Translations under genes and position numbers: made by a program
Notes under the pieces: generated by a model
The model's database searches: none
The model's input: the letters and a program-made list of their open reading frames with translations, nothing else
Told to the model about the DNA's origin: nothing
Source: a virus
Length of the DNA: 43,352 nucleotides
Virus record (IMG/VR): IMGVR_UViG_3300014839_000016
Span: 1-43,352 of that record
Direction: 5' to 3' (one strand)
Shown here: positions 1,597 through 37,913 of the stretch, in pieces
Layout: the number at the start of each line of letters is the position of its first letter
How positions within the stretch are numbered: position 1 is the stretch's first letter

Positions 1597-4500
1597 AATC
1601 ACCTAAAACAGGTGAAGTAACTGCGAAGCAAGAGCGTACCGAAATGCACGGTTCCGGCTTTATGCCTTTTGAAAGCAAACCAGAGCCGGGTACGTTTGAC
1701 ACTTATCGCAAGATACGAAAGAACCCTACCGTTGCGCTGGCGCGACTGATTGCTACTTCCCCGATTCGTACCGCGAAGTGGACTCTTGCGAGTGACGACA
1801 AAAAGGCCAAGGAGTTTATCAAGGAACAACTAGATCGTCTTTGGCCTGGATTCATTAACGACGTTCTGTTTGCGTTGGATTATGGCTTTGCCTGCTTTGA
1901 AAATGTGTGGGAGAATGTTGACGGCAAGTTAGTAATCCAGCGGATGAAACCTCTGTTGCCCGACATGACAGAAATGATTGTCGGCGTGGAACACGGCGAG
2001 TTTCTAGGGGTGAAGAACAAGGATATAGAGATACGAGGGGCGAAGGTTTTTCGTTATACCTACAACGAAGAGGCGGGAAACTATTACGGGGAGTCACGCC
2101 ACGAAAACATACGCGAAACCGCGTACAAAGAATGGGTAGATTTGCAACAGCGCCGTTCTGTATACGGTAGGCGCGTTGCTGGCGCAGTACCGCAAGTAAC
2201 AGCGCCGGACGGCGACTCCATATCAGAAGCAGGCGCTACGCGACCAAACTTTGAACTCGCCCGCGAGATGGTAACGAAGTTAGAAAAAGGTCTTGGTATA
2301 TTCATGCCTGGATTATCCAAGATCGAAATGGTGGACATATTGAATCGGGGCGGTGATCCTAGCAAGGCGAACGCATGGAAGATTGATTTCCTGGAATCAG
2401 CGGGACAGCACGGCGCAGAACTCACGGAAATGATGACGCATTGTGAGACGTTGTTTATGCGTGGCTGGCTTTGCCCGGAACGCGGCGCAATCGAAGCAAG
2501 ACAACAAGGTAGTCGCGCGGATAGTGATACGGGCGCGGACCTAGCGGTTACAATCGCGGATATTGTGTATGCGGATATTATCCGCGCTGTGAATGAACAG
2601 CTTGTCGATGCACTACTATTACAGAACTTTGAGCCGGGGCTGGTGAAGATTGTGCGCGGCGGTGTCGAGCCGGAATTGCTTTCATTCTATCGCGGGATTA
2701 TGACAACCGTTCTTGGCAATCCTTCCAATGTTGAACTCTTGGAAACAAAGGTTGACTTGGAAAAGGTGATGGAAGATTGCGGACTACCAAAGAACGAACA
2801 CCCCGAAAAGGCGCAGGCGGAAATCGCCTCGAAACAGCAACAGGGCGGCGAACCGCCGTTTGGTAATCTCAAAAAGGCAATGTCACAGTTGTATCATTCC
2901 GTTAATCGCGAATATGACATTCCTTTCCTGGCGGGTACTTCAATTGACGGCGCGACTGTTTACATCGACAAAGATTTCCCGGATACTATCGAAGTCGAGG
3001 GGCAGACGTACAACCCGACAATGGCGCTGACTGCGCATGAGACGGCGGAAGATGATGGAATTCACGAAGGGTTGACATATTTTGAGGCGCACGATCAATT
3101 AGGGTTGCCAGCAGAGCGCGCAGTAGTCGAGGCGGCGGGCATTGATTTTGATTCGTATAACAAAGCCTTGCAGCCGTATATCGACAAATGCAAAGCTAAG
3201 ATCGCGCCGAACATACCCGAAGATTTGGAGTTGCAACCATATCGGGAAGAGAACTATTCGTTAGCCAACACTTATCACGATCACGTTGGCCGATTCACTT
3301 CTGGCGCAAGCAAGCATTACGAGATTCAGAAAGCGAACAATGAAAACCTTTCGCGGTCTGCGAAGGGTGTAGCAGACACTTCATCCTCAATTGACAAGCC
3401 GCCGCTTGCGTTGAACGGCAGAGACTTATCGCAGCAGGTTGATGAAAATACAAAAGAGGTTGGACGCATAATCCACGCGGCGAGAGACTTTCAACCGTTG
3501 GACGGGGAAGATGTAAAGGACAAGATTTTTGAACTAGAGGCGGCGGTCAATAAGGGTATTGCAACTGGACCTGTGCTGCGCGAATGGACCCACGATAATC
3601 TTCTCGCCGACAAAGTGCCGGAAGAGTTTGAAAAGGTCTGTGATACAATTGCGAAGCGCTGGCAAGAAGTGCATACCGATCCTGTGCCGCTTGCATCCTG
3701 GGTGGAGTGGCAATTGAACGGTTCACCACTTCATCCTTTCACAGACGGTTGCGGGCGAACGTCACGCGCAGTCGGCGCGATGATAATGAACGCGGGCGGA
3801 AAACAGTATCCTATCCATCAAAGCAAGATGGATTACTACGAAGCAGGGAACACCGGAAAACTCGCGGAGTATTACGCGAAAGGGTTATCCCTGTTTGATG
3901 AATCGAAACACCGTAGAGATAGCAGCGGGCGATGGTCAGAGTCTAGCAATAATGTTCATTGGGCGGAGGGCGCTGCAAATGCGAGTAGAGAGAAGATTGC
4001 AACCGACCCTGCGTATGGCGACACAAAGCAGGGTAAATTCTTCCCTGTGGGTTTCGATTGCAATGATGCGCATACATACGCCACAAAGCTATTCGCGGGT
4101 TTGAAAGAAGACTACGCGAAGTGGCAGAACATTCGCGGCGAGTTCCGAGACACCGTGTTGCAATTCAAAGATTTACCCTGGAATGACCCTAAAGCCGACC
4201 CGCTTGACGAAAAGATTAATAGCCTTGCAAGAAGCGGCGTTGAAATTGAAAGGGGTATTCTGGCGAAAGAATCTGCGCTGAATACTCGCTTCTTTGCTAA
4301 GCTAAAGACCGACTCCCCTTTGACCACAGAAATTCAACCAGGGCAAATCATAGCGACAGGCATAAAGCGGGGTTTGAAATTCTTTGAGTCGCATGTCAAC
4401 AGCCGTGTATGGGAAACCAAAGAGAGTGTGAAGTGCGAACAAGTGCCTGAATTTGTTGGCAGTAACTATGACCCCGACGACAGAACGGCGAGAATCTCGA

Positions 4501-5942
4501 ATTCGGGAATGATTCCCGTTGCGCAAGAGGCCACGCACGAATTAGGCCACGCGCTAGAATTCCATTCTGATTCTATACACAAGACCGTTGTTGATTTCTT
4601 CACGAAGCGCACGGCAGGACAAACGCCGGTAACGTATTACGACGCGCTGAAGGATTGGGAAGCGAAACAAGGTTGGAAACAATGGGGTATGCCGATTAAC
4701 CAGCCAGCGGAAGACGCGAAGCGTGTTATGGTAATTCCTGACAACTTCTTTGAGCCGTATGCCGGGCGGGTGTATGATTCCGCTACGCATGGTGACTTGA
4801 ACGATTACGGTGAGACATTCTCAATGGGTGTTGAAAGAATGATGGCACACCCGTTGTTCTTTGCACAAGAAGACCCGGAACACTTCAAGATGATTTACCG
4901 TTGCCTGACAGGCAACCCAAAGGCGCTAGGCTTATTCGACGAAAGTAAACATACTCGCGATGAAGCTGGGGAATTCGCGGCACAGAGATCGGATACAGCG
5001 AAAGAAGTTTCACGATCCTTGCACGTTGACCTTGACGATAGTTTCCCGGAAGGAAAAACGGAAGCAGAGAAAGCCGTAGCGAGTATATGGAAAGCGAAGA
5101 TGCACGAAGAATGGGCAAAGGCGCATCTTTACCAGCATCCCGCCGCGTATCGCATACAACACCAAGAAGCGATAGATTTGCACAATCACGCGAAGGAAGC
5201 GCACGAAGAGTTAGCCTATGACTACTGGAAGGATAAAGGCGACATAGCAGCCGAGGATACCCAAACGCGACATAGGACCGGCGAAGGGTATACACCGGAA
5301 AGAAAGTATCTGCATAATGCCTGCTTGAAGTTTTACGAGCGCAATGCGAAACCCGTGGAAACTCCTACCGTGTATATGATGGGCGGTGGAACAGCGAGTG
5401 GAAAATCCACGATCAAAGATACGCTAGGTCTGCCTAAGAACTCTGTCGGTGTTGACGCCGACGATATAAAGAGTTGGCTGCCGGAATACACAAAGGGTTT
5501 GAAGCGAAAGGAAGAAAGCGCCGCGTACTATGCGCATGAAGAATCTTCCGATGTTGCAAAGGCTTTGCTAAAGGACGCCGTGGGGAAAAAGCTGAATGTA
5601 GTGTATGACTGCACGGGAGACAGCGGACTAGAGGCGGCGAGAAAGCGGGTTGCGGACTTGCATGAAGCAGGCGCGAAAGTAGTTGCTAACTTCTGTACTT
5701 GCGATGTAGATACCGCGATTCAGCGGGCGAATAAACGGATTCGACCTGTGCATGAAGAGACGGTTCGCGCCTTGCATCGTGGCGTTTCTGAAGTGTTGCC
5801 AAAGATGTATAAGGACTTCGATGCTTGTACGCTTTGGGACACGGACGGCGAAAAAACAAAGGTAATGTCGTGGGACGGTAAGAATACCACAATCCACGAT
5901 GAAGGCAAATGGGCACGATTCAAGGACAAAGAAAATGAATAA
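1593..5942 (+). CDS. Mu-type portal protein fused to peptidase, Fic, HELGH metallopeptidase and zeta-toxin-like domains
   Basis: At 1449 residues this is about three times a normal portal. Residues 1-430 resemble the Mu gp29/DUF935 portal, the dodecameric ring through which DNA enters and leaves. Residues ~437-550 form a small domain with AHETAE (~482), a possible zinc peptidase. Residues ~590-760 carry a Fic core, HPFTDGCGRTSR at ~714; Cys replaces the usual Asn, but the catalytic His and Arg remain. Residues ~780-1110 hold HELGHALE (~981), a zinc-metallopeptidase signature. Residues ~1255-1449 are a zeta-toxin-like kinase with P-loop GGGTASGKST (~1263). Linkers at ~560, ~767 and ~1113 share a D-E-S-K-H-x-R-D-x-x-G-R-W/F motif. 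ATG follows GGAG at 7 nt. I infer virion-carried effectors; none has been shown to be active. Confidence 0.85.
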   Translation: MKSPKTGEVTAKQERTEMHGSGFMPFESKPEPGTFDTYRKIRKNPTVALARLIATSPIRTAKWTLASDDKKAKEFIKEQLDRLWPGFINDVLFALDYGFACFENVWENVDGKLVIQRMKPLLPDMTEMIVGVEHGEFLGVKNKDIEIRGAKVFRYTYNEEAGNYYGESRHENIRETAYKEWVDLQQRRSVYGRRVAGAVPQVTAPDGDSISEAGATRPNFELAREMVTKLEKGLGIFMPGLSKIEMVDILNRGGDPSKANAWKIDFLESAGQHGAELTEMMTHCETLFMRGWLCPERGAIEARQQGSRADSDTGADLAVTIADIVYADIIRAVNEQLVDALLLQNFEPGLVKIVRGGVEPELLSFYRGIMTTVLGNPSNVELLETKVDLEKVMEDCGLPKNEHPEKAQAEIASKQQQGGEPPFGNLKKAMSQLYHSVNREYDIPFLAGTSIDGATVYIDKDFPDTIEVEGQTYNPTMALTAHETAEDDGIHEGLTYFEAHDQLGLPAERAVVEAAGIDFDSYNKALQPYIDKCKAKIAPNIPEDLELQPYREENYSLANTYHDHVGRFTSGASKHYEIQKANNENLSRSAKGVADTSSSIDKPPLALNGRDLSQQVDENTKEVGRIIHAARDFQPLDGEDVKDKIFELEAAVNKGIATGPVLREWTHDNLLADKVPEEFEKVCDTIAKRWQEVHTDPVPLASWVEWQLNGSPLHPFTDGCGRTSRAVGAMIMNAGGKQYPIHQSKMDYYEAGNTGKLAEYYAKGLSLFDESKHRRDSSGRWSESSNNVHWAEGAANASREKIATDPAYGDTKQGKFFPVGFDCNDAHTYATKLFAGLKEDYAKWQNIRGEFRDTVLQFKDLPWNDPKADPLDEKINSLARSGVEIERGILAKESALNTRFFAKLKTDSPLTTEIQPGQIIATGIKRGLKFFESHVNSRVWETKESVKCEQVPEFVGSNYDPDDRTARISNSGMIPVAQEATHELGHALEFHSDSIHKTVVDFFTKRTAGQTPVTYYDALKDWEAKQGWKQWGMPINQPAEDAKRVMVIPDNFFEPYAGRVYDSATHGDLNDYGETFSMGVERMMAHPLFFAQEDPEHFKMIYRCLTGNPKALGLFDESKHTRDEAGEFAAQRSDTAKEVSRSLHVDLDDSFPEGKTEAEKAVASIWKAKMHEEWAKAHLYQHPAAYRIQHQEAIDLHNHAKEAHEELAYDYWKDKGDIAAEDTQTRHRTGEGYTPERKYLHNACLKFYERNAKPVETPTVYMMGGGTASGKSTIKDTLGLPKNSVGVDADDIKSWLPEYTKGLKRKEESAAYYAHEESSDVAKALLKDAVGKKLNVVYDCTGDSGLEAARKRVADLHEAGAKVVANFCTCDVDTAIQRANKRIRPVHEETVRALHRGVSEVLPKMYKDFDACTLWDTDGEKTKVMSWDGKNTTIHDEGKWARFKDKENE

Positions 5943-10862: not shown

Positions 10863-12215
10863 ATGACTTGGTTGAATGTGAATCGTGATGTGCTTCCCGG
10901 TGTGCAGCCGGAAGCGGTTGCGCCGATTCGCGAGTTGCTACTCGCTGCGCCCTTTGCACAAAGCTATTGGCCGCAAGGATTGGCGATTGATGGCACGGCC
11001 ACGCGGGATTGTGATAACCCGATCCGTGTGGATATTCTCCGCGCCGGACTTGTTATGGGCCGGATTACCGGAACCAACAAGTATGCCAATTCGATTTTTG
11101 GTTTGACTACCGCCGCATTGACCGGCGCGTCTACCAATATCGCTTTGCCCGGCCCGGTTGCGAGTGAAATCTCGCGGCGACTTGGCAGCAGTGGTACTCT
11201 GAAAATCACCGGCCCGGCTGTTGCAAGTGGCACGGTGCGAACGAAGACCGCTACTTTCTCCGCGATTGCAACAAGCGGCGGAAATGACGCGGTGCTTGTT
11301 GTTGGGAGTGGAAGTGGTACGATGTACTTGAACGTCGTGGATTATAACGGCGTGGTGCAGACTACTTCCGCGCTTGCGTACAACGATTCGGCGGCAAATG
11401 TTCTTGCGGCTTTGAACGCCGTTCTTGGCACAAATGCCGTTACCGTTACGGGCACGCTTCTTTCGTCTCCCGGTTTGACGATTGCCTGGACTGGCGTCCC
11501 GAATTACGCGGGCCGCAAGGCTCCCGCCGTTTCTGTCGGCGCAGCGCCGATTACGGCAACAACGGTGACAGGTTCCCCTGTTATCGCAGTGACGTATCCC
11601 GATGGGATTACCATTTCCGCGCTTGGCACGGCGGAAGTTGTTACCATTACCGGCGGCGCTACCCAGGCGAACGGTACCTTCCAAATCAATGTTGGCGGGC
11701 AGCGCACAACGGCGCTGACGTACAATGTTTCCGCCGCTGATATGCAAACGGCGGTGAATCTTCTCACTACCGTCGGCACGGCGGGTGTGAGTGTGTCGCT
11801 CAACGGTTACGTTTACACCCTCACTTTCGCGACTGCACTTGGCGATCAAGAAGTGAAGGTCGAATGTGATTCCTGCGCCGTCGCGAGTACCTTCCAGCCC
11901 GCGCCGATGGCCGTTGCAAAGACGGTTGTTGGGGCGGATGGGCGATTTGTTGCGGGTAGCGTTTTGCAGCCGGTTGACGGAAGCGAAACGCCGGTTACTC
12001 TGTACGTCAACAAGTATGGACAGAGCGACTTGAACGTGTTCCTGCAAGGCGTTGACATTGCGTATTCTGATTTGCTTGTTGAAGGCACAATCAGAACCGC
12101 GATGATTGTGAACTATCCCGCTGACTCTTCTCTGCGAACGTGGTTGAAGTCTGCCGTTCGCGCGAATGGCGGGCATTTCCTGTTCGATGATGACTACATT
12201 GGAACTTCCATCTAA
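10863..12215 (+). CDS. Putative head decoration/structural protein with repeated beta domains, 450 aa
   Basis: The protein lies between scaffold and major capsid genes, where decoration proteins usually lie, and has a strong AAGGAG site before ATG 10863. Residues 1-110 and the last ~90 have mixed composition. The middle has two diverged copies of a Thr/Val/Ala-rich beta module, recognisable by ALAYNDSAANVLAALN and ALTYNVSAADMQTAVN, each followed by a valine-rich strand region. Such modules are typical of Ig-like or BIg-like virion domains. It probably coats the capsid. It is unusually long for a decoration protein because of the inserted repeats. Confidence 0.65.
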   Translation: MTWLNVNRDVLPGVQPEAVAPIRELLLAAPFAQSYWPQGLAIDGTATRDCDNPIRVDILRAGLVMGRITGTNKYANSIFGLTTAALTGASTNIALPGPVASEISRRLGSSGTLKITGPAVASGTVRTKTATFSAIATSGGNDAVLVVGSGSGTMYLNVVDYNGVVQTTSALAYNDSAANVLAALNAVLGTNAVTVTGTLLSSPGLTIAWTGVPNYAGRKAPAVSVGAAPITATTVTGSPVIAVTYPDGITISALGTAEVVTITGGATQANGTFQINVGGQRTTALTYNVSAADMQTAVNLLTTVGTAGVSVSLNGYVYTLTFATALGDQEVKVECDSCAVASTFQPAPMAVAKTVVGADGRFVAGSVLQPVDGSETPVTLYVNKYGQSDLNVFLQGVDIAYSDLLVEGTIRTAMIVNYPADSSLRTWLKSAVRANGGHFLFDDDYIGTSI

Positions 12216-12227
12216 GGAGAATCAATT

Positions 12228-13382
12228 ATGGCAAGTGCTACCCTTCAAATGCTATTGGGGGCGAAGAACCTCTGTGGCATTATCACGAAAGTGAAGTCGA
12301 AGTTGCCGGACTATGTTCTGCCGGACATTTTCACCAAGCCCAATCGCACGGTGGAAGGCGCTTATGCAACCTTCCCCACGCGAAAGGGTGAACGGCGCAG
12401 CGCGCAAGAAGTCGCGTACAATGCGCCGTCAATCGCTTGGGAAGGAAAAGGTTTGGGGCAGGTTTCGGTGAAGATGATGCACAGCAAGCACAATATCTCT
12501 ATCGACCCCGGAACTCTGACCAATCTGCTTTTGCCCGACAAGGACATGAAACAGGTTATGGCGCGTGAAGAGATCGCGCGGCAAACCGCCGATTTCGGTG
12601 ATGCGTTTACGAACAAGCGCCTCGCTACCACGTTTATGACTCTCGCTAATGGGAAGATTTACATTGGCGCGAATGGGCAACTGTTGCCGACTTCCACCGG
12701 CGCGGCTTTCACGGTGGATATGAATATCCCGGCGGGGAATCGCAATCAGTTAAAGGTTGCAACGCCGGAATTCGGTCTTGCTACTTCTCCCGTGGGCATT
12801 ATCGCGGCGAGTTGGGCAACGGTGACAACGGATATTCCGACTCATATCCAATCGGTTATCCGCGCTTCTGTGCAGTTGACCGGCTACCCCGTGACTCATG
12901 CGTTTTACGGATCGAATATCCTTCAGTACATTCTGAAGAATACGATGTTGCAATCGTATATGAAATTCAATCCGGCGTTCAATGAATCGCTGCGCGTCAC
13001 CGGCCAGATTCCTGACGGTTTCCTTGGCCTTCATTGGCATCCGGCGCATTTGGCGTTCTTCTCTGGTATGCAGTACAATACCAGAACGGGTGAACAACAG
13101 GATTTGCCGTATACCGTTTGGGACGCGGACACGATCACGTTCTGCCCGGAACCGGCGAATGATTGGTACGAATTCGTGCAGGGTACTTATCCTTGCCCAA
13201 ACAAGATTCGCTTGTCGGAATCGCTGGAAGACGCGATTTCGGATATGACTTCGCAGCCTGGCATGTTCTCCTATGCGTTTGGGAAGATGGACCCTCCCGG
13301 ATTCACCCAGATTGCTGGTGACACGTTCCTGCCGTACATCAAGGTTCCCGAAGCGGTCTTCATTGCGAAGGTCGCGTTCTAG
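12228..13382 (+). CDS. Major capsid protein, 384 aa
   Basis: The size, the AAGGAG ribosome site, the position after protease, scaffold and decoration genes, and the following strong hairpin all fit the major capsid gene. The sequence has an N-terminal helical arm with LPDYVLPDIF, a central segment with NISIDPGTLTNLL, and a C-terminal beta region, broadly resembling HK97-fold capsid proteins of the lambda E/Mu T type. No delta-domain is obvious because scaffold is encoded separately. I assign it on context plus composition, not on a single diagnostic motif. Confidence 0.8.
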   Translation: MASATLQMLLGAKNLCGIITKVKSKLPDYVLPDIFTKPNRTVEGAYATFPTRKGERRSAQEVAYNAPSIAWEGKGLGQVSVKMMHSKHNISIDPGTLTNLLLPDKDMKQVMAREEIARQTADFGDAFTNKRLATTFMTLANGKIYIGANGQLLPTSTGAAFTVDMNIPAGNRNQLKVATPEFGLATSPVGIIAASWATVTTDIPTHIQSVIRASVQLTGYPVTHAFYGSNILQYILKNTMLQSYMKFNPAFNESLRVTGQIPDGFLGLHWHPAHLAFFSGMQYNTRTGEQQDLPYTVWDADTITFCPEPANDWYEFVQGTYPCPNKIRLSESLEDAISDMTSQPGMFSYAFGKMDPPGFTQIAGDTFLPYIKVPEAVFIAKVAF

Positions 13383-13391
13383 TCAACTTTA

Positions 13392-13436
13392 GCATACAGT
13401 ACGGCGCAGAAAGTAGTTCTGCGCCGTACTGTATGT
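13392..13436 (+). terminator. Strong hairpin after the major capsid gene
   Basis: A perfect 19-bp inverted repeat (13393-13411 with 13417-13435) encloses the loop AGTAG, 10 nt after the capsid stop. The right arm is followed by TAAAGG, not a T-run, so it may act as an mRNA stabiliser or attenuator as well as a terminator. The outer arm sequence ATACAGTACG recurs in the hairpin at 39436-39472. Confidence 0.7.
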
Positions 13437-13451
13437 AAAGGAAAAATAACA

Positions 13452-23130: not shown

Positions 23131-24594
23131 ATGCCAACACACGACCCCAATCGCGCAATTGCCCGATCTCTGCTACCAAATTCGACAGCAGGGTTTCAAG
23201 GTATTATGCAGCGCCCATCGTTCACGGATCAAGGATTTTGGGCGATGATTACGCCCTACGGTCCCGGCGAAACAGAAGAAGATCATGTTACGCTGGATTA
23301 TCACCAAGTTTGGGTGAAATCTCAAGATGTTGTTTATAATTCAGGTGAAGGGGACGGTGACAGGCTACCTTATGCTTGGCTTGAGGACGCGGATACTGGC
23401 GCGGATAACTACCTTTGGGTAATTGCTTCAAATCTAGCATACACTAATTTAGAAAAACTTAACAATGACCCAACACCATTCCCCGGTGCTTGGGATAGCT
23501 GGTATCAAAATTTTCTCATAAACGTGGACTTCCCCGTTTGGGTAAGCGTCTCTTACGAATATGGCACAAACAAACTTGTCTACGTTATAAATGAGTTGCC
23601 GCTTTGGTCTATATTCCAGGGAGACGCCTTTTGGATCGGTGGCTTTCACTCTTCGTGGAGTATCTACGATGCTTACGGGGGAGACGACCAAGACCAAAAC
23701 ATGCCGGAGACTTTTTTCTGGGACCCCCATCCCGCGCTTAGGTCTGATACTTCTCTTGTCAACCCAAAACCCGGCGCACAGTTTGGTTGGGATCACGGTG
23801 TAATAGACGACGGGAACATCCTTAATCTACCGTACGACAATGTGGTTTGGGACATTACAGATGATGGCAATACTATCACTATTACCTACCTTGACTTATA
23901 TCGTGACCCCAAAAATCATGTTGTTCCGGGTACTTTGAGTAAAGGTACTTTGACGATTGATAAACAACCCAAAGACTCTGGTGGGGGTGTTTCAATTGCG
24001 GTAGACGACAGCGATCCTTGGATTTCCATACACGCCGCAACCGTTGGGAATATAACGACAATCACTGTCGATGATAAAGGGGCGAATGGAACACCTGGCG
24101 GAGCCTTCCATAACACAGTAACAACTATCGCGCCTCTTGTTTTTGGTACAACGGGGGCCGATGGGCTTACCTCGACAACCATTAACAGTCTGAAGTATGA
24201 CAGCAAGGGCCGCGTAATAGGCATAAATGGTGCAGCAGGGGATTCTGTTTTAGAGAATTTGAACGGGTTGCAGGCGGGAGGCGGTCTTACAATCGGCGCA
24301 GGAGACGCGGGTGGAATCACAAAGAAGATTTCCATACCCCCAACAGGCTCGCCAGCTACAACCGCAATCTTCTATGATTTATCGGATAGCGACCCGGACG
24401 GGACAATCCGGGCAAAGGGTTACGAGATTGGTACAGACATACGGGGGATCACTACGCTAACTCGCGTAGAAGAAGACGACGTTGTTATTCATACTCTGCC
24501 CCCCTGCACATCGGCGGATAAGAACAAAGTCTTGACCGTGAGTGATTCCGGCACAGTGATTTGGGGGCCGGTCAAAACAATGGCGACGAGTTAA
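23131..24594 (+). CDS. Tail fibre/receptor-binding type protein, 487 aa
   Basis: The N-terminal ~260 residues are rich in Trp, Tyr, Asp and Asn. The C-terminal ~220 have beta-helical repeats with Gly/Asp/Thr (for example GVSIAVDDSDPWISI, TITVDDKGANGTPGG) like phage fibre or tip proteins. It follows the tip gene in a late tail position and is probably exposed to the host. Its binding target cannot be told. Confidence 0.55.
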   Translation: MPTHDPNRAIARSLLPNSTAGFQGIMQRPSFTDQGFWAMITPYGPGETEEDHVTLDYHQVWVKSQDVVYNSGEGDGDRLPYAWLEDADTGADNYLWVIASNLAYTNLEKLNNDPTPFPGAWDSWYQNFLINVDFPVWVSVSYEYGTNKLVYVINELPLWSIFQGDAFWIGGFHSSWSIYDAYGGDDQDQNMPETFFWDPHPALRSDTSLVNPKPGAQFGWDHGVIDDGNILNLPYDNVVWDITDDGNTITITYLDLYRDPKNHVVPGTLSKGTLTIDKQPKDSGGGVSIAVDDSDPWISIHAATVGNITTITVDDKGANGTPGGAFHNTVTTIAPLVFGTTGADGLTSTTINSLKYDSKGRVIGINGAAGDSVLENLNGLQAGGGLTIGAGDAGGITKKISIPPTGSPATTAIFYDLSDSDPDGTIRAKGYEIGTDIRGITTLTRVEEDDVVIHTLPPCTSADKNKVLTVSDSGTVIWGPVKTMATS

Positions 24595-30603: not shown

Positions 30604-30665
30604 AAAGCCGACCTTTGAGCCTACCCTGGCGAGATCGTGTCTCCTGGGGCAACCTGACGATGAAA

Positions 30666-30688
30666 CATATACGGAGTCCTCGTATATG
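30666..30688. repeat. 8-bp inverted repeat between methyltransferase and zinc-ribbon genes
   Basis: CATATACG (30666-30673) and CGTATATG (30681-30688) are perfect arms around GAGTCCT. It lies in the 95-bp gap before the zinc-ribbon gene and could be an operator or an RNA hairpin; no T-run follows. Confidence 0.55.
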
Positions 30689-30698
30689 ATCGCCATTG

Positions 30699-30905
30699 AT
30701 GAAATCCGCTACGGAAAAGAAATCGAAAATGATTACTTGCGCTAATTGTCAGCGGGAATTTGACGCGGCGCACGGCGTCGGCGGGAAAAAATGCCCCTAT
30801 TGCGGCGAAACGGTTTTCACCGGGAGATTCGTCAGTTATTTGGCGGGAAAAGAAAAACGGCGCAAACCGAAGTCTGCGCCGTCATCCCGCGATAGCGAGG
30901 ATTAA
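30699..30905 (+). CDS. Zinc-ribbon micro-protein, 68 aa
   Basis: The motif CANCQREF and CPYCGET form a CxxC-x14-CxxC zinc ribbon. The C-terminal tail is basic (AGKEKRRKPK). An alternative start is ATG 30729. It ends TAA 30903-30905, overlapping the tail-to-tail stop of the leftward gene at 30902. It may bind DNA or RNA polymerase; this is not shown. Confidence 0.6.
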   Translation: MKSATEKKSKMITCANCQREFDAAHGVGGKKCPYCGETVFTGRFVSYLAGKEKRRKPKSAPSSRDSED

Positions 30906-31021
30906 CCGTTGCAAGCGGTATAAAATCGGCCGTTCTGACTCGCACAGTAGTTTTCGATTTCGAGTCTTGCGTCACTTTTCGGTTTGCAGTTGCGGAGGGC
31001 CTTGAAGTGTTTCTTGGTCAT
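30902..31021 (-). CDS. Leftward micro-protein, 39 aa
   Basis: Start ATG (complement of 31019-31021) overlaps the stop of the upstream leftward gene as ATGA. The peptide begins MTKKHFKALR and ends with NGRFYTACNG, a pattern of tiny phage proteins ending in FxxAC. No function is known. Coupled expression from the promoter at 31268-31296. Confidence 0.6.
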   Translation of the reverse strand: MTKKHFKALRNCKPKSDARLEIENYCASQNGRFYTACNG

Positions 31022-31221
31022 TTCACCTTGACGACGTAGCCGTTTTCGACCTGGACTTCCGCATACCAGCGATGCGGCGCGGGATAATGCGGTCCTTCGA
31101 TGAACTCCCGACCGTCGGTTTTCGCGGGGAACGGACCCGGCGAAAAGACGTAAACCTTCCGACCGGCGGCAACCGCTTCTTTGAACGCTTTCTTCGTCTT
31201 AAAATTCGGATCAACGTACAT
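31018..31221 (-). CDS. Leftward conserved micro-protein, 67 aa
   Basis: The start at 31221 has an excellent AGGAG ribosome site (complement of 31228-31234). It contains KKAFKEAVAAGRKVYVFSPG and GPHYPAPHRWYAEV. The pattern K-A-x-K-E-A-V-A-A-G ... E-G-P-H-Y-P-x-P-H-x-W-Y-A is conserved in short phage and bacterial proteins of unknown function. It is first in a two-gene leftward operon. Confidence 0.75.
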   Translation of the reverse strand: MYVDPNFKTKKAFKEAVAAGRKVYVFSPGPFPAKTDGREFIEGPHYPAPHRWYAEVQVENGYVVKVK

Positions 31222-31267
31222 TCTGTGTCTCCTTGAGGTTTCGGGCGCGCCTTGCGCCACTAATTAC

Positions 31268-31296
31268 ATTATACACGGCGGCTTGGCGAAAGTCAA
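31268..31296 (-). promoter_or_regulatory. Near-consensus sigma70 promoter, leftward
   Basis: On the minus strand TTGACT (31291-31296) and TATAAT (31268-31273) are separated by 17 bp. It drives the two-gene leftward operon starting at 31221. It starts right after the stop of the next leftward gene at 31299. Confidence 0.85.
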
Positions 31297-31298
31297 CA

Positions 31299-31466
31299 TC
31301 ATTTGTGACAATCGCCGCTTTGAATCAGCGCCGCCGCCATGCGGCCATAGCAACCCTGGAGTTGCCAAACGATACCGGAGTCAATCAGCGCCTGGAAGCC
31401 CTCGATGATCTCTTCCTGCGTGCATTCGCCGCCTTCGTACCGCATGATGAAATCGAGTGTCGTCAT
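31299..31466 (-). CDS. Leftward conserved micro-protein (DUF7417-like), 55 aa
   Basis: Starts MTTLDFIMRYEGGECTQEE and continues with IEGFQALIDSGIVWQLQG and YGRMAAALI, the pattern of a widely distributed phage micro-protein. ATG at 31466 follows GGAAGGA on the minus strand. Function is unknown. It has its own promoter at 31507-31535. Confidence 0.75.
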   Translation of the reverse strand: MTTLDFIMRYEGGECTQEEIIEGFQALIDSGIVWQLQGCYGRMAAALIQSGDCHK

Positions 31467-31506
31467 TTTTGAATCCTTCCGCGTTAGAGTTTCTTCACTA
31501 CCTAAT

Positions 31507-31535
31507 AGTATACGCTTGGCCTGTGCGAAAATCAA
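31507..31535 (-). promoter_or_regulatory. Sigma70-type promoter, leftward
   Basis: On the minus strand TTGATT (31530-31535) and TATACT (31507-31512) are separated by 17 bp. The spacer starts TTCGC, as does that of the promoter at 31268-31296. It drives the gene starting at 31466. Confidence 0.8.
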
Positions 31536-31553
31536 CCAAATTCGGAGAAAATA

Positions 31554-31733
31554 ATGAGTTGCTGGCGGTGTTACAGTGACGACGTTTACGAGGATTTTGA
31601 CGGCGTTTTTTGGTGCAACGATTGTTGCGCACGACAAAAGAAAGCGAGAGGATTACCCGATGTTCCAAAATCAGGAATTGCTGGAAAGACTAACGAGGAA
31701 AAACGCGACGATTCTTGGATACACAAAGAATGA
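31554..31733 (+). CDS. Zinc-ribbon micro-protein, 59 aa
   Basis: CWRCYSDD and CNDCCAR form a CxxC-x17-CxxC ribbon, and ATG 31554 has GGAGAAA upstream. The frame overlaps the next gene by 74 bp in another frame, more than usual here, so the gene is less certain than its neighbours. Confidence 0.5.
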   Translation: MSCWRCYSDDVYEDFDGVFWCNDCCARQKKARGLPDVPKSGIAGKTNEEKRDDSWIHKE

Positions 31734-32007
31734 AGGATGCGCGGCGAGGTTCTCGTCTCGCGCCGCGTATTTTCAAATCATCGCGTCCTGGGGCGGCGGT
31801 TGGGATCACGTTTCGATTTCCCTGCTGTTGGAAAAGCGTTGCCCGACATGGGCGGAAATGTGCATGATTAAGGAGTTGTTCTTCAAAGATGAAGAGTGCG
31901 TAATTCAGTATCACCCGGCGAAAGCGAATTACGTCAACGAATTCGTTTTGCATCTGTGGCGTCCGCAAAACGTGGAAATCCCGATGCCGCCGAAAGATTA
32001 TGTATGA
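31660..32007 (+). CDS. DUF7694-like phage protein, 115 aa
   Basis: Contains GGGWDHVSISLL, CPTWAEMCMIKELFF, QYHP, and LHLWRPQNVEIPMPP, a pattern conserved in phage proteins of unknown function. Start ATG 31660 has GAGAGG upstream and is preferred to any TTG further upstream. Ends in an ATGA overlap with the next gene. Confidence 0.8.
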   Translation: MFQNQELLERLTRKNATILGYTKNEGCAARFSSRAAYFQIIASWGGGWDHVSISLLLEKRCPTWAEMCMIKELFFKDEECVIQYHPAKANYVNEFVLHLWRPQNVEIPMPPKDYV

Positions 32008-32336
32008 ACACCTGCGCAATTGACGGGTGCAAATGTCGCGGACCAAACAACTGCCCTATCTGCGAACACTGGCAACCTAGCCGGGGAAGTAGATACAATC
32101 GTTGCGCCGCTTGGCACGAAGAGAGATTCGTTTGCGAACTCTTATCTTGCGAAGGGTGCGATAGATTATTGCCCAAAGGCGAGTCCGGCAATTCTCCTAC
32201 CGTGACGTTAAACCTAGACCCGCGAGATATTGAAGGCTGGCGCATGTACGAGAGAGATAGAAAAAGGCGATGGAGGGCGAATCAAAAACGCAAACACCTG
32301 TTCGATGGTAATGACGATTTCGATTTGGGTACTTAG
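32004..32336 (+). CDS. Cys-rich zinc-binding protein, 110 aa
   Basis: ATG 32004 overlaps the previous stop (ATGA). The N-terminal half carries 10 Cys residues (CAIDGCKCRG, CPICEH, CELLSCEGCDR), likely to bind two or three zinc ions; the C-terminal third is a basic helix (RDRKRRWRANQKRKH). Function is unknown; a nucleic-acid-binding regulator would fit. The large inverted repeat begins 30 bp after its stop. Confidence 0.6.
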   Translation: MNTCAIDGCKCRGPNNCPICEHWQPSRGSRYNRCAAWHEERFVCELLSCEGCDRLLPKGESGNSPTVTLNLDPRDIEGWRMYERDRKRRWRANQKRKHLFDGNDDFDLGT

Positions 32337-32365
32337 CGCGGGAGAATAATTTTCCGAAACATGAA

Positions 32366-32479
32366 ATCTATGTCCCGAGACCCGTTTTTCGACTTTCACC
32401 CCCATCAGATTTCAGACAAAATAATTTCGCCAGAATCCTAGAGGGGTGAAAGTCGAAAAACGGGTCTCGGGACATAGAT
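32366..32479. repeat. Large perfect inverted repeat (37-bp arms), candidate origin or mobile remnant
   Basis: Positions 32366-32402 are the exact reverse complement of 32443-32479; the 40-nt loop (32403-32442) is AT-rich. Imperfect pairing continues outward (TTTCCGAAACAT at 32351-32362 with ATGTTTCTCGGAAA at 32481-32494). The whole 192-bp gap between the Cys-rich gene and the primase-helicase gene is occupied by it. Arms contain the same short ORF start, MSRDPFFDFHP, on both strands. Confidence 0.9.
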
Positions 32480-32528
32480 AATGTTTCTCGGAAAGTTAGC
32501 GTAGTAGAATACTTTACAGGAGCGCAGA

Positions 32529-35318
32529 ATGAAATTGACCGATCCGGCAGCATGGCTTTCGGAGTATGGTATTGAAGTGAGTGACGGCATGACTCTATGC
32601 CCCTTTCACGACGATCACAACCCATCTTGCAATGTTTCTATCGAGAAACAGTGTTTCATTTGCAAGGCTTGCGGTGCGCATGGCGATTTAACCTATCTCA
32701 TGGCGCAGAAACATGGTGTAAGTAAGCTGGCGGTAGAACACCATGTAAAAGGCGTAGAAAGTTCTACAACCATTAGTCAATCGAGCGTGGAAGCGTGGCA
32801 TAAGTTGCTGGTGGTGAACAAAGCGAAACTAGCTATCTTGCGGGAGAGAAAAGGTATCACACTAGACACGATCCGCAAGCATAAGTTGGGCCTGGACGGC
32901 GACAGGATCACCATTCCGATCTACAATGAAAACCGTGATGTTATCAATGTAAGGAAATGGAGTCCGACAGACAAGAAACAGAAAGTCCTCAACTACAAAG
33001 GCGGGGTTTCAAAAGCGCTTTATCCTATCGAGGCGTTTGAAGAGAAGATAGTCTACCTTACGGAAGGGGAGTTGAAAGCCTTGTGCCTTCGCGAACGTGG
33101 TTTGAATGGTGTATCGGGAACCGGCGGCGCGGGGACATGGAGCAGCGATTGGAAATCCTATTTCGTAGATAAGACCGTGTATATTGTTTACGACATAGAC
33201 TCGCCGGGAAGTACCGGCGCAATCCGGGCCGCGAGAGACTTACACGCGGTTGCCGAGTCTGTGCATATTGTGAAGCTACCGATAGACCCCAAAGAAATAC
33301 CCACAGGAGGGATAGACGATTTTCTTACAAAACTTAACCACGATGCGAAGGATTTTCTTCGTATCTGTGAACAGACGGCGAAATATGTTCCGGTGTCTTT
33401 GTTGCAAAGGGAACCTGACGATCCGGAAATATACCCTGTACACCTATCCCGCGCAAGTCTGGCGCAATACTCCGAAAAGTTTGTCAGAGTCGAGGCGGTA
33501 GTTTGCGCCAAGGATACTACCCCGTATGAAGTGCCAAAAGAGTTTCTAGTTGCGTGTTCTCGCGGCAAGGATGAATGTGCCGTGTGCCCCTTGCAAACGC
33601 TTAATAATGACTTCATCCATGCTATTGATAATCGGAATCCGATTCTCTTATCTTTCATCAAAACGCCAGACTACAAACTTGTAGCGGCGATGAAAAGGTC
33701 CGTGGGTATTCCTTACTCTTGCAAAGACTCTTCTGTGAGTATCAAATCGAAATGGAACATCGAAGATGTACACCTAATGCCACAGTTGAAAACCGCGAAT
33801 AGCAATGAAGACCACGTTACCCGCCGGGCCTTGTTTGTTGGCCTGGGGATCGAGTCTAATTCCAGCTACACGGTGGAAGCGCGGGCGACGGTTGACCCTA
33901 ATACACAATACGCGGCGTTGCTGATGTATGAAGCGAAACAGACGGTAGACTCTCTAGGCTCTTTCGCTTTGACGGACGGAATGAAGAAGCAGTTGAAAGC
34001 CTTTCAACCGAAAGCCTGGACGGTAGAGGCGATGCAAAAGAAACTCGACTCCATTTATGAAGACCTGGAAAACAATGTCACGCGGATATACAAGCGCCGA
34101 GAATTGCACTTGGCCTACGATTTGATTTATCATAGCGTTTTGCTGATACCCTTTCAAGGAAAGGTTATCAAAGGCTGGGTGGAGGGTTTGGTCATTGGTG
34201 ATTCCGGCACGGGGAAATCAGAGACTTTCAATTGCTTGTTGGCGCATTACAATCTAGGCGAAAAGATCGACGGGAAAGGGTGTTCTATCGCGGGATTGAA
34301 GGGCGGTTGTCAACAGTTAGAGAAAGGCTGGTATATTACCTGGGGTAAAATTCCTTTGAGTGACCGTAGACTTCTGGCGATTGATGAAGCGAAAGGTATG
34401 CCGTTGGATGTTATCGCGAGTCTAACAGAAATGAGAAGCAGCGGCAAGGCGCAGCTAAGCAAGATTGAAAAGCTGGAGACTAACGCACGAACGAGATTGG
34501 TTATGATTACCAACCCGCGAAGTGATAGACAACTGATTAGTTACTCGCATGGCGTCAAAGCAGTAAAGGAGTTTGTAGGCGCGTTGGAAGATGTAAGGCG
34601 ATATGACTTGGCTATCCTTACGGCGTCCGGTGACGTACCCCGCGATATGCTGAATATCCGGGATGAAGATAGGCCAAAAGTTAAGCACGAATTTACTAGC
34701 GACCTATGCCGCAATCTGATACTATGGGCATGGAGCCGAGTAGAGACACAGGTGCAGATTTTGCCAGATGCAGTAAACGCCATACTTGAGGGCGCGAAAG
34801 CAATGGGACAGGCGTTTTCTTCCGCGATACCCCTGGTAGAAGAGTCCGATCAAAGATTGAAACTGGCGCGGCTGGCTACATCGCTAGCGGCGCGAACATA
34901 CTCTACTGACGACGGTGAAACAGTGGTGGTACGAAAGTGCCACGCGGAGTATGTTGTAAAGTTTCTCACGGATGTTTACTCTTCCAAAGTCTTTGGGTAT
35001 CTGGATTTCTCCAAAGCGAAGAAAGCGGAGCAAGAAATCATAGACCCTGTGTATGTATCAAAGGTATTGCGGGAGTTGCCGTATGCAAAGACCGCTTGCG
35101 AAAAGTTCTTGAACGCGGAAACGTTTACACTGTGGGATTTCATGGATTGGACGGAACTAGACAGAGAAACAGCGAATAGGTTTTGGTCTGTGTTTGTCCG
35201 GCACAATGCGATTACCCACAACAAAACTAAGTTCTACAAATCACCCGCGTTCATCGGGTTGTTAAAGGGTTTGGGTAAGTTGACCAATGTTGGGTTAGCA
35301 GAGGAGACGGAGTTATGA
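32529..35318 (+). CDS. Primase fused to AAA+ (MCM-like) helicase, 929 aa
   Basis: The N-terminal CHC2 zinc finger uses C24-x2-H27 and C45-x2-C48. A TOPRIM domain follows, with YLTEGELKAL at ~178 and VYDIDSPG at ~219. The middle ~280 residues have Cys clusters (CSRGKDECAVC at ~343). The C-terminal AAA+ motor shows Walker A GDSGTGKSE at ~557, Walker B LLAIDEA at ~615 and a SSGKAQLSKIEKLETNARTR segment that resembles the MCM pre-sensor region, rather than DnaB. It would prime and unwind DNA for replication. RBS AGGAGCG precedes ATG 32529. The giant inverted repeat lies upstream. Confidence 0.8.
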   Translation: MKLTDPAAWLSEYGIEVSDGMTLCPFHDDHNPSCNVSIEKQCFICKACGAHGDLTYLMAQKHGVSKLAVEHHVKGVESSTTISQSSVEAWHKLLVVNKAKLAILRERKGITLDTIRKHKLGLDGDRITIPIYNENRDVINVRKWSPTDKKQKVLNYKGGVSKALYPIEAFEEKIVYLTEGELKALCLRERGLNGVSGTGGAGTWSSDWKSYFVDKTVYIVYDIDSPGSTGAIRAARDLHAVAESVHIVKLPIDPKEIPTGGIDDFLTKLNHDAKDFLRICEQTAKYVPVSLLQREPDDPEIYPVHLSRASLAQYSEKFVRVEAVVCAKDTTPYEVPKEFLVACSRGKDECAVCPLQTLNNDFIHAIDNRNPILLSFIKTPDYKLVAAMKRSVGIPYSCKDSSVSIKSKWNIEDVHLMPQLKTANSNEDHVTRRALFVGLGIESNSSYTVEARATVDPNTQYAALLMYEAKQTVDSLGSFALTDGMKKQLKAFQPKAWTVEAMQKKLDSIYEDLENNVTRIYKRRELHLAYDLIYHSVLLIPFQGKVIKGWVEGLVIGDSGTGKSETFNCLLAHYNLGEKIDGKGCSIAGLKGGCQQLEKGWYITWGKIPLSDRRLLAIDEAKGMPLDVIASLTEMRSSGKAQLSKIEKLETNARTRLVMITNPRSDRQLISYSHGVKAVKEFVGALEDVRRYDLAILTASGDVPRDMLNIRDEDRPKVKHEFTSDLCRNLILWAWSRVETQVQILPDAVNAILEGAKAMGQAFSSAIPLVEESDQRLKLARLATSLAARTYSTDDGETVVVRKCHAEYVVKFLTDVYSSKVFGYLDFSKAKKAEQEIIDPVYVSKVLRELPYAKTACEKFLNAETFTLWDFMDWTELDRETANRFWSVFVRHNAITHNKTKFYKSPAFIGLLKGLGKLTNVGLAEETEL

Positions 35319-37851: not shown

Positions 37852-37913
37852 CCTCCGCGCCGCGCCTACAAGACTCGAAAGAAACCTTTTGGGTTTTGTA
37901 GGCGGCGCGGGGA
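37852..37913 (+). terminator. GC-rich multi-stem hairpin
   Basis: CCGCGCCG and CCTACAA (37855-37862 and 37865-37871, split by a 2-nt bulge at 37863-37864) pair with TTGTAGGCGGCGCGG (37896-37910). An inner stem AAACC-TTTT-GGGTTT is present. No T-run follows. It could reduce read-through or stabilise the upstream mRNA. Confidence 0.6.

Follow-up and report, generated by a model that had tools for sequence, protein, structure and literature searches.

The window, by which we mean the whole stretch of 43,352 nucleotides analysed here, contains a genuine, unusually long and near-perfect hairpin in front of its primase-helicase gene. We propose that this hairpin may be a DNA-level dyad-symmetric replication site, i.e., an origin or an initiator/helicase-loading element, for the adjacent DnaG-MCM protein, a reading to which we give slightly less than even confidence. 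The hairpin lies in a gap of 192 nt (32337-32528) that reaches from the TAG of gene 32004-32336 to the ATG of gene 32529-35318. Both genes have the same orientation, and the hairpin begins 10 nt after the stop codon and is followed by an intact AGGAG ribosome site. The features of this junction are as follows:

32004-32336, + strand: upstream gene, encoding a 110-aa Cys-rich protein with homologues before the primase in the three closest relatives
32333-32348, + strand: left copy of the flanking direct repeat, TTAGCGcgGgAGAATA, overlapping the upstream gene's TAG stop and the hairpin foot
32347-32365, + strand: left outer arm, an imperfect stem extension
32361-32441, + strand: 26-codon ORF spanning left arm and loop, with GGGAG 16 nt before its ATG
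32366-32402, + strand: left arm of the perfect 37-bp stem (ATCTATGTCCCGAGACCCGTTTTTCGACTTTCACCCC), from base-by-base pairing
32403-32442, + strand: loop of 40 nt, 35% GC (14 G/C)
32443-32479, + strand: right arm of the perfect 37-bp stem, the reverse complement of the left arm
32480-32498, + strand: right outer arm, an imperfect stem extension
32496-32511, + strand: right copy of the flanking direct repeat, TTAGCGtaGtAGAATA
32529-35318, + strand: primase-helicase gene (929 aa), from profile matches and an AlphaFold model

Base by base, the inner arms show Watson-Crick pairing at 37/37 positions, with no G-U pair among them, and the ungapped extension (32347-32411 against 32434-32498) is 83% complementary. 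The initial annotation had described exactly such an architecture, namely perfect 37-bp arms, an AT-rich centre of 40 nt and imperfect outer extensions. Perfect stem and loop together comprise 114 bp, and the start codon of the primase-helicase follows 50 bp on. Folded as RNA, the hairpin has a minimum free energy of -95.4 kcal/mol against -42.8 +/- 4.4 for shuffled sequences (z -12.0), while folding as DNA gave -55 against -14.8 +/- 3.0 (z -13.3). It is the top inverted repeat of the window and 899 kb of its relatives' loci, with a score of 41.5, the next one reaching 26. The mismatches are unevenly distributed, with 0/37 in the inner arms and about 8/20 in the outer arms (Fisher p 8e-5), the latter showing both substitutions and indels. 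Given this difference, it was fair to conclude from the perfect arms that they imply a recent origin or strong selection, and template switching that homogenises the arms would have an equal effect. A clear AT-rich unwinding element was not seen in the hairpin, no 7-mer occurs three or more times between 32300 and 32530, and an inverted-iteron cluster was not found in the window.

The gap itself agrees with the 190 bp stated earlier, while calling it the only one of the replication block was too strong, as 30604-31575 is ORF-poor as well. This region of nearly 1 kb carries no convincing long ORF on the + strand; ORFs of 80 aa and 112 aa are present on the - strand. Two further hairpins of the window were recorded. 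The second strongest (13387-13441) has a 19-bp perfect stem within 25-nt arms and a 5-nt loop, and is found in a short gap between two genes of the structural region, with no T-tract after it on the + strand. The other (37854-37913) is GC-rich, with 28-nt arms that are 79% complementary and a 4-nt loop, and lies slightly downstream of the DNA polymerase gene.

Based on profile matches and structure prediction, the gene at 32529-35318 is predicted to encode a fusion of a DnaG-type primase with an MCM-type helicase. The domain order is a DnaG zinc ribbon and Toprim primase, an MCM N-domain-like part, an AAA+ helicase and a winged-helix-like C-terminus. The best PDB profile match of the primase part is 2au3, a DNA primase (E 6e-25), and the helicase part matches archaeal MCM (E ~3e-10). 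The AlphaFold model has a pLDDT of 85.6, and its residues 300-826 compare to archaeal MCM with a Z of 28.8 and an rmsd of 5.3 over 457 residues. In residues 840-917, three helices are joined to a two-strand wing; this succession is that of a winged helix, as judged from secondary structure only. Phages with MCM helicases, as well as MCM fused to archaeo-eukaryotic primases, have been described before (PMC5862659), whereas the family of the window's primase-helicase shows MCM fused to a DnaG-type primase instead. This combination of a DnaG-type primase, a complete MCM-type helicase and a winged-helix-like C-terminus was found to be spread over a broad phage group.

Among the three closest relatives (L007, L210, and L212), whose primases are 43-47% identical to that of the window, the gene order from the helicase to the Cys-rich gene and the primase is shared, and the hairpin is absent at the junction of the latter two. 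In L007 (47% identity) the Cys-rich gene and the primase overlap by ATGA, while in L210 and L212 small genes take up the junction before the primase. Searching for the arms in other phages, as suggested with the initial annotation, found nothing: exact and similarity searches gave zero matches in collections of phages, plasmids and viral contigs, and within the phage genome the arms are single-copy. A close homologue of the element, in which covariation of the arms could be followed, was absent from the collections searched. The hairpin is bracketed by a 16-bp imperfect direct repeat (TTAGCGNNGNAGAATA), the copies of which are 13/16 identical (p 0.0025 against shuffles and 0.0065 against random genome pairs) and the exact 13-base match of which occurs at this site only. 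If one repeat unit were removed, a normal junction of stop, AGGAG and ATG would remain. The missing hairpin in the relatives, together with this repeat, makes it most likely that the element was acquired by, or assembled in, the lineage of the window.

How do these observations fit other explanations? An RNA element is a possible, yet rather unlikely alternative: the rightward transcript of the replication operon would fold after the stop codon and be cut by an RNase III-type host RNase, so that the upstream and the primase messages are separated and differentially stabilised. The position between co-oriented genes, 10 nt past a stop and before an intact AGGAG, as well as the RNA fold of -95 kcal/mol, fit this scenario, and any transcript of such a duplex would make a good RNase III substrate. 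However, the 37 inner pairs are free of G-U, Rfam gave no match and thus no conserved RNA family, and a comparison of the stems of two relatives (L014 and L086) shows three pairs with compensatory Watson-Crick double changes and three that are broken, none of them via G-U, although these numbers are small. We consider it unlikely as well that the hairpin is a fold-back (MITE-like) or recombination-made insertion, possibly functionless, at this junction, with the ~16-bp repeat as target duplication or recombination repeat. The hairpin-free homologous junctions of the three relatives, the flanking repeat and the normal junction that one repeat unit fewer would leave behind favour such an origin, and in L007 an unrelated 122-bp hairpin occurs twice, at junctions other than this one. 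In contrast, the window hairpin is single-copy and without similar DNA in phage, plasmid and viral collections, its flanking repeats differ at 3/16 positions while the inner arms are perfect, and the L007 copies lack a target duplication. The non-autonomous mobile element of the initial annotation agrees with the lineage specificity, the flanking repeat and the two-copy family of L007, but not with a single copy that has no kin in the collections. RNA processing and insertion also describe the fate of a transcript and the origin of an element, respectively; thus these two and the replication-site reading are not strictly exclusive. Even if the hairpin were a mere RNA hairpin or insertion, the content of this junction differs in each close relative.

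That the hairpin terminates or attenuates transcription of the primase gene is very improbable. It does lie between genes of one orientation, but a T-tract is absent on both sides, the region contains 0 terminator-like sites where 1.6 are expected by chance, and the loop of 40 nt is long. The 26-codon ORF is probably due to chance; it is badly spaced from its ribosome site, and leader-peptide attenuation was rejected. The transcription attenuator considered before is not supported. Hardly credible is an artefact of assembly or amplification, i.e., a chimeric inverted duplication. Long inverted repeats are a recognised product of whole-genome amplification chimeras; here, however, the flanks are not mirrored, different intact genes in the order of the relatives lie on each side, and substitutions and indels are present in the outer arms.

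The replication-site reading, the best supported of the three ideas put forward initially, draws on comparative and compositional evidence and on the precedent of pRN1 and BIP-1. The detrended cumulative GC skew of the window has its minimum at 34157 (33869 for third codon positions), 1.7 kb to the right of the hairpin. A two-level step fit placed the switch at 34.0 kb, and 75% of the bootstraps fell within 3 kb of the hairpin. With a wide 5-95% bootstrap interval of 23.2-37.3 kb, the skew check proposed earlier fixes the position of this switch only loosely. Across genomes, there is moderate evidence that long hairpins sit near skew minima more often than expected. The top hairpin of a genome was located within 8% of a half-genome of the skew minimum in 7/18 exploratory genomes (expected 1.4) and in 3/12 genomes of a check set (expected 1.0; KS p 0.03); this association is partly exploratory, given that the check set alone had been fixed in advance, and it yielded a modest result. 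Weak hairpins are found near the minimum in 8-10%, and noncoding top hairpins in 8/18 cases versus 14/99 for long noncoding gaps. Most relatives have their skew minimum elsewhere than at the primase, and the skew minima of about 30 relatives rule out that the origin is always directly before the primase. Speaking against the replication-site reading are this placement of the minima, the wide interval of the window's skew step, the hairpin-free junctions of L007, L210, and L212, the lack of iterons and of a clear AT-rich unwinding element in the hairpin, and arms that differ from the iterons of G032/G033 and L007.

Dyad-symmetric elements were also detected in related phages. In the more distantly related L014/L015, L006 (Krampusvirus) and L086, the top inverted repeats lie 147-192 nt before the primase-helicase gene and differ in sequence. 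In L014/L015 the repeat comprises 26 bp with a 43-nt loop, the loops of L006 and L086 measure 46 and 65 nt, and L044, likewise more distant, has a 14-bp repeat with a 39-nt loop before its primase. The stem changes between L014 and L086 that avoid G-U hint at DNA-level symmetry in that lineage, albeit with small numbers. The 900-nt pre-primase gap of both (~3026-3926) has no convincing ORFs and contains several hairpins and AT-rich stretches. A pattern search for further hairpins of this type yielded, apart from the contigs already known, nothing but coding look-alikes, while the hairpins of L018/L019 were dismissed as analogues, since their T-tracts make them probable terminators. Within the 486-bp pre-primase gap of Krampusvirus, which is at least 93.6% identical across 32 records, an inverted array of CCACAAT/ATTGTGG is present. 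The same motifs occur in L104/L105 (Krampus NC_047986) at 32268-32370 before the primase and at 56226-56460 in the noncoding right end.

In the close relatives, a strong repeat precedes the first replication gene and not the primase. In G032 and G033 it consists of four iterons of ~22 bp (TGTTAAAATAAGTG...) in the order ++--, while L007 has its 122-bp hairpin at this place and a second copy 19 kb off with an inverted centre:

L213 (G032), 11728-11979: four inverted iterons TGTTAAAATAAGTG(T)ACATTT, ++--, skew minimum close
G033, 12621-12872 (rotated orientation): four inverted iterons TGTTAAAATAAGTG(T)ACATTT, ++--, skew minimum inside
G001 (record of L007), 5001-5122 and 24156-24277 (primase-forward orientation): two copies of the 122-bp hairpin

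The iteron arrays of G032 and G033 are strong origin candidates. The array of G033 encloses the skew minimum, that of G032 is 0.5-0.8 kb away from it, and in both genomes the minimum coincides with a switch of the coding strand, so that strand-switch effects remain a confounder of skew in such genomes. The two L007 copies share identical 24-bp arm ends, and their GC-rich centres are mutually inverted; neither a match in any other viral contig nor a target duplication was found. The window hairpin shows no homology above shuffles or background to the hairpins and iterons of L007, L014, L086, L006, L005, L044, L019, G032, and G033, and among the iterons of G032/G033 and L007 its arms have no match.

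If the window hairpin is indeed a replication site, protein binding, extrusion and initiation could be envisioned as follows, all of which we infer. The phage primase-helicase would bind both arms via its winged-helix-like C-terminus and its MCM domain, and the symmetry of the arms might allow two MCM-type rings to assemble head to head. Arms and AT-rich loop would then extrude or melt into a single-stranded template, and the fused primase could start primers on the exposed single strand. One might further speculate that in tailed phages with DnaG-MCM fusions, rapidly evolving dyads, either giant hairpins or inverted iterons and often ~100-120 bp in size, start replication by loading an MCM-type double ring, a one-protein analogue of archaeal and eukaryal origin licensing fused to a bacterial-type primase; the site would move from one junction of the replication module to another, and its dyad architecture would persist. 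In this generality we regard the idea as decidedly unlikely. Should the hairpin prove to be an origin, a system of one element and one protein could show minimal MCM loading without ORC/Cdc6-like loaders, and could show why phage origins keep shape and not sequence. A simple rule for uncultivated phages would follow as well: origins could be spotted where the replication genes begin, as long inverted repeats in noncoding DNA close to the skew minimum.

Compared to known systems, the element has several partial counterparts. With the inverted iterons of G032, G033, and Krampusvirus it shares dyad symmetry at the head of replication genes, and the distance between the outer TGT...ACA motifs amounts to 101 bp in G032, 106 bp in G033, 106 bp in L007, and 104 bp in the window, a post hoc comparison with a chance of about 1 in 20. 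However, those iterons are several short repeated sites, whereas the window has a single continuous stem without a matching motif. In phage P4, the helicase of the alpha protein is not known to be an MCM, and a second site, crr, is present; the two 122-bp copies of L007 recall this two-site arrangement. The P4 ori consists of short iterons, which the window hairpin lacks, while a Toprim-type primase fused to a helicase and a winged helix, together with a cis-acting site, which for the window is a putative one, are common to both (PMC4234260). The ESAS of Cluster K mycobacteriophages (PMC3203893) and the dyad repeats of Cluster O (PMC4351075) are likewise intergenic inverted repeats just upstream of genes. 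They measure 17 bp, occur in many copies per genome and have spacers of 4-13 bp or 3 bp (PMC3203893, PMC4351075), in contrast to the single copy and 37-bp arms of the window hairpin. The mobile elements of mycobacteriophages (MPMEs, PMC4351075) and bacterial MITEs resemble it as inverted-repeat elements at gene junctions that are missing from relatives. MPMEs are nevertheless ~440 bp long and contain an ORF (PMC4351075), while the window element has neither a transposase nor a second copy, and only an imperfect flanking repeat.

In the Sulfolobus plasmid pRN1, replication requires a 100-bp stem-loop that neighbours the primase-helicase gene; its structure is conserved in the pRN1 family while its sequence is not, and phage BIP-1 has a similar stem-loop by its replication gene (PMC4234260). 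The window's stem-loop precedes the gene and has a 37-bp stem and a 40-nt loop, whereas that of pRN1 is found downstream, with a 21-nt stem and a 58-nt loop. In addition, the window protein combines a DnaG/Toprim primase with MCM, the pRN1 protein an archaeo-eukaryotic prim-pol with an SF3 helicase. Because gene side, primase class and helicase class differ, we say that the window element works like the pRN1 system, not that it is one. In both, a stem-loop of ~100-114 bp adjoins the primase-helicase gene. The different long inverted repeats before the primase of L014/L086, Krampusvirus, and L044 would resemble a structure kept across lineages without its sequence, but the three closest relatives of the window are hairpin-less at this junction. 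Both proteins unite a primase, a hexameric helicase and a C-terminal winged helix, which in the window is winged-helix-like. Taken together, size, place and type of partner suggest that the window element would be functionally similar to the stem-loop origins of pRN1 and BIP-1.
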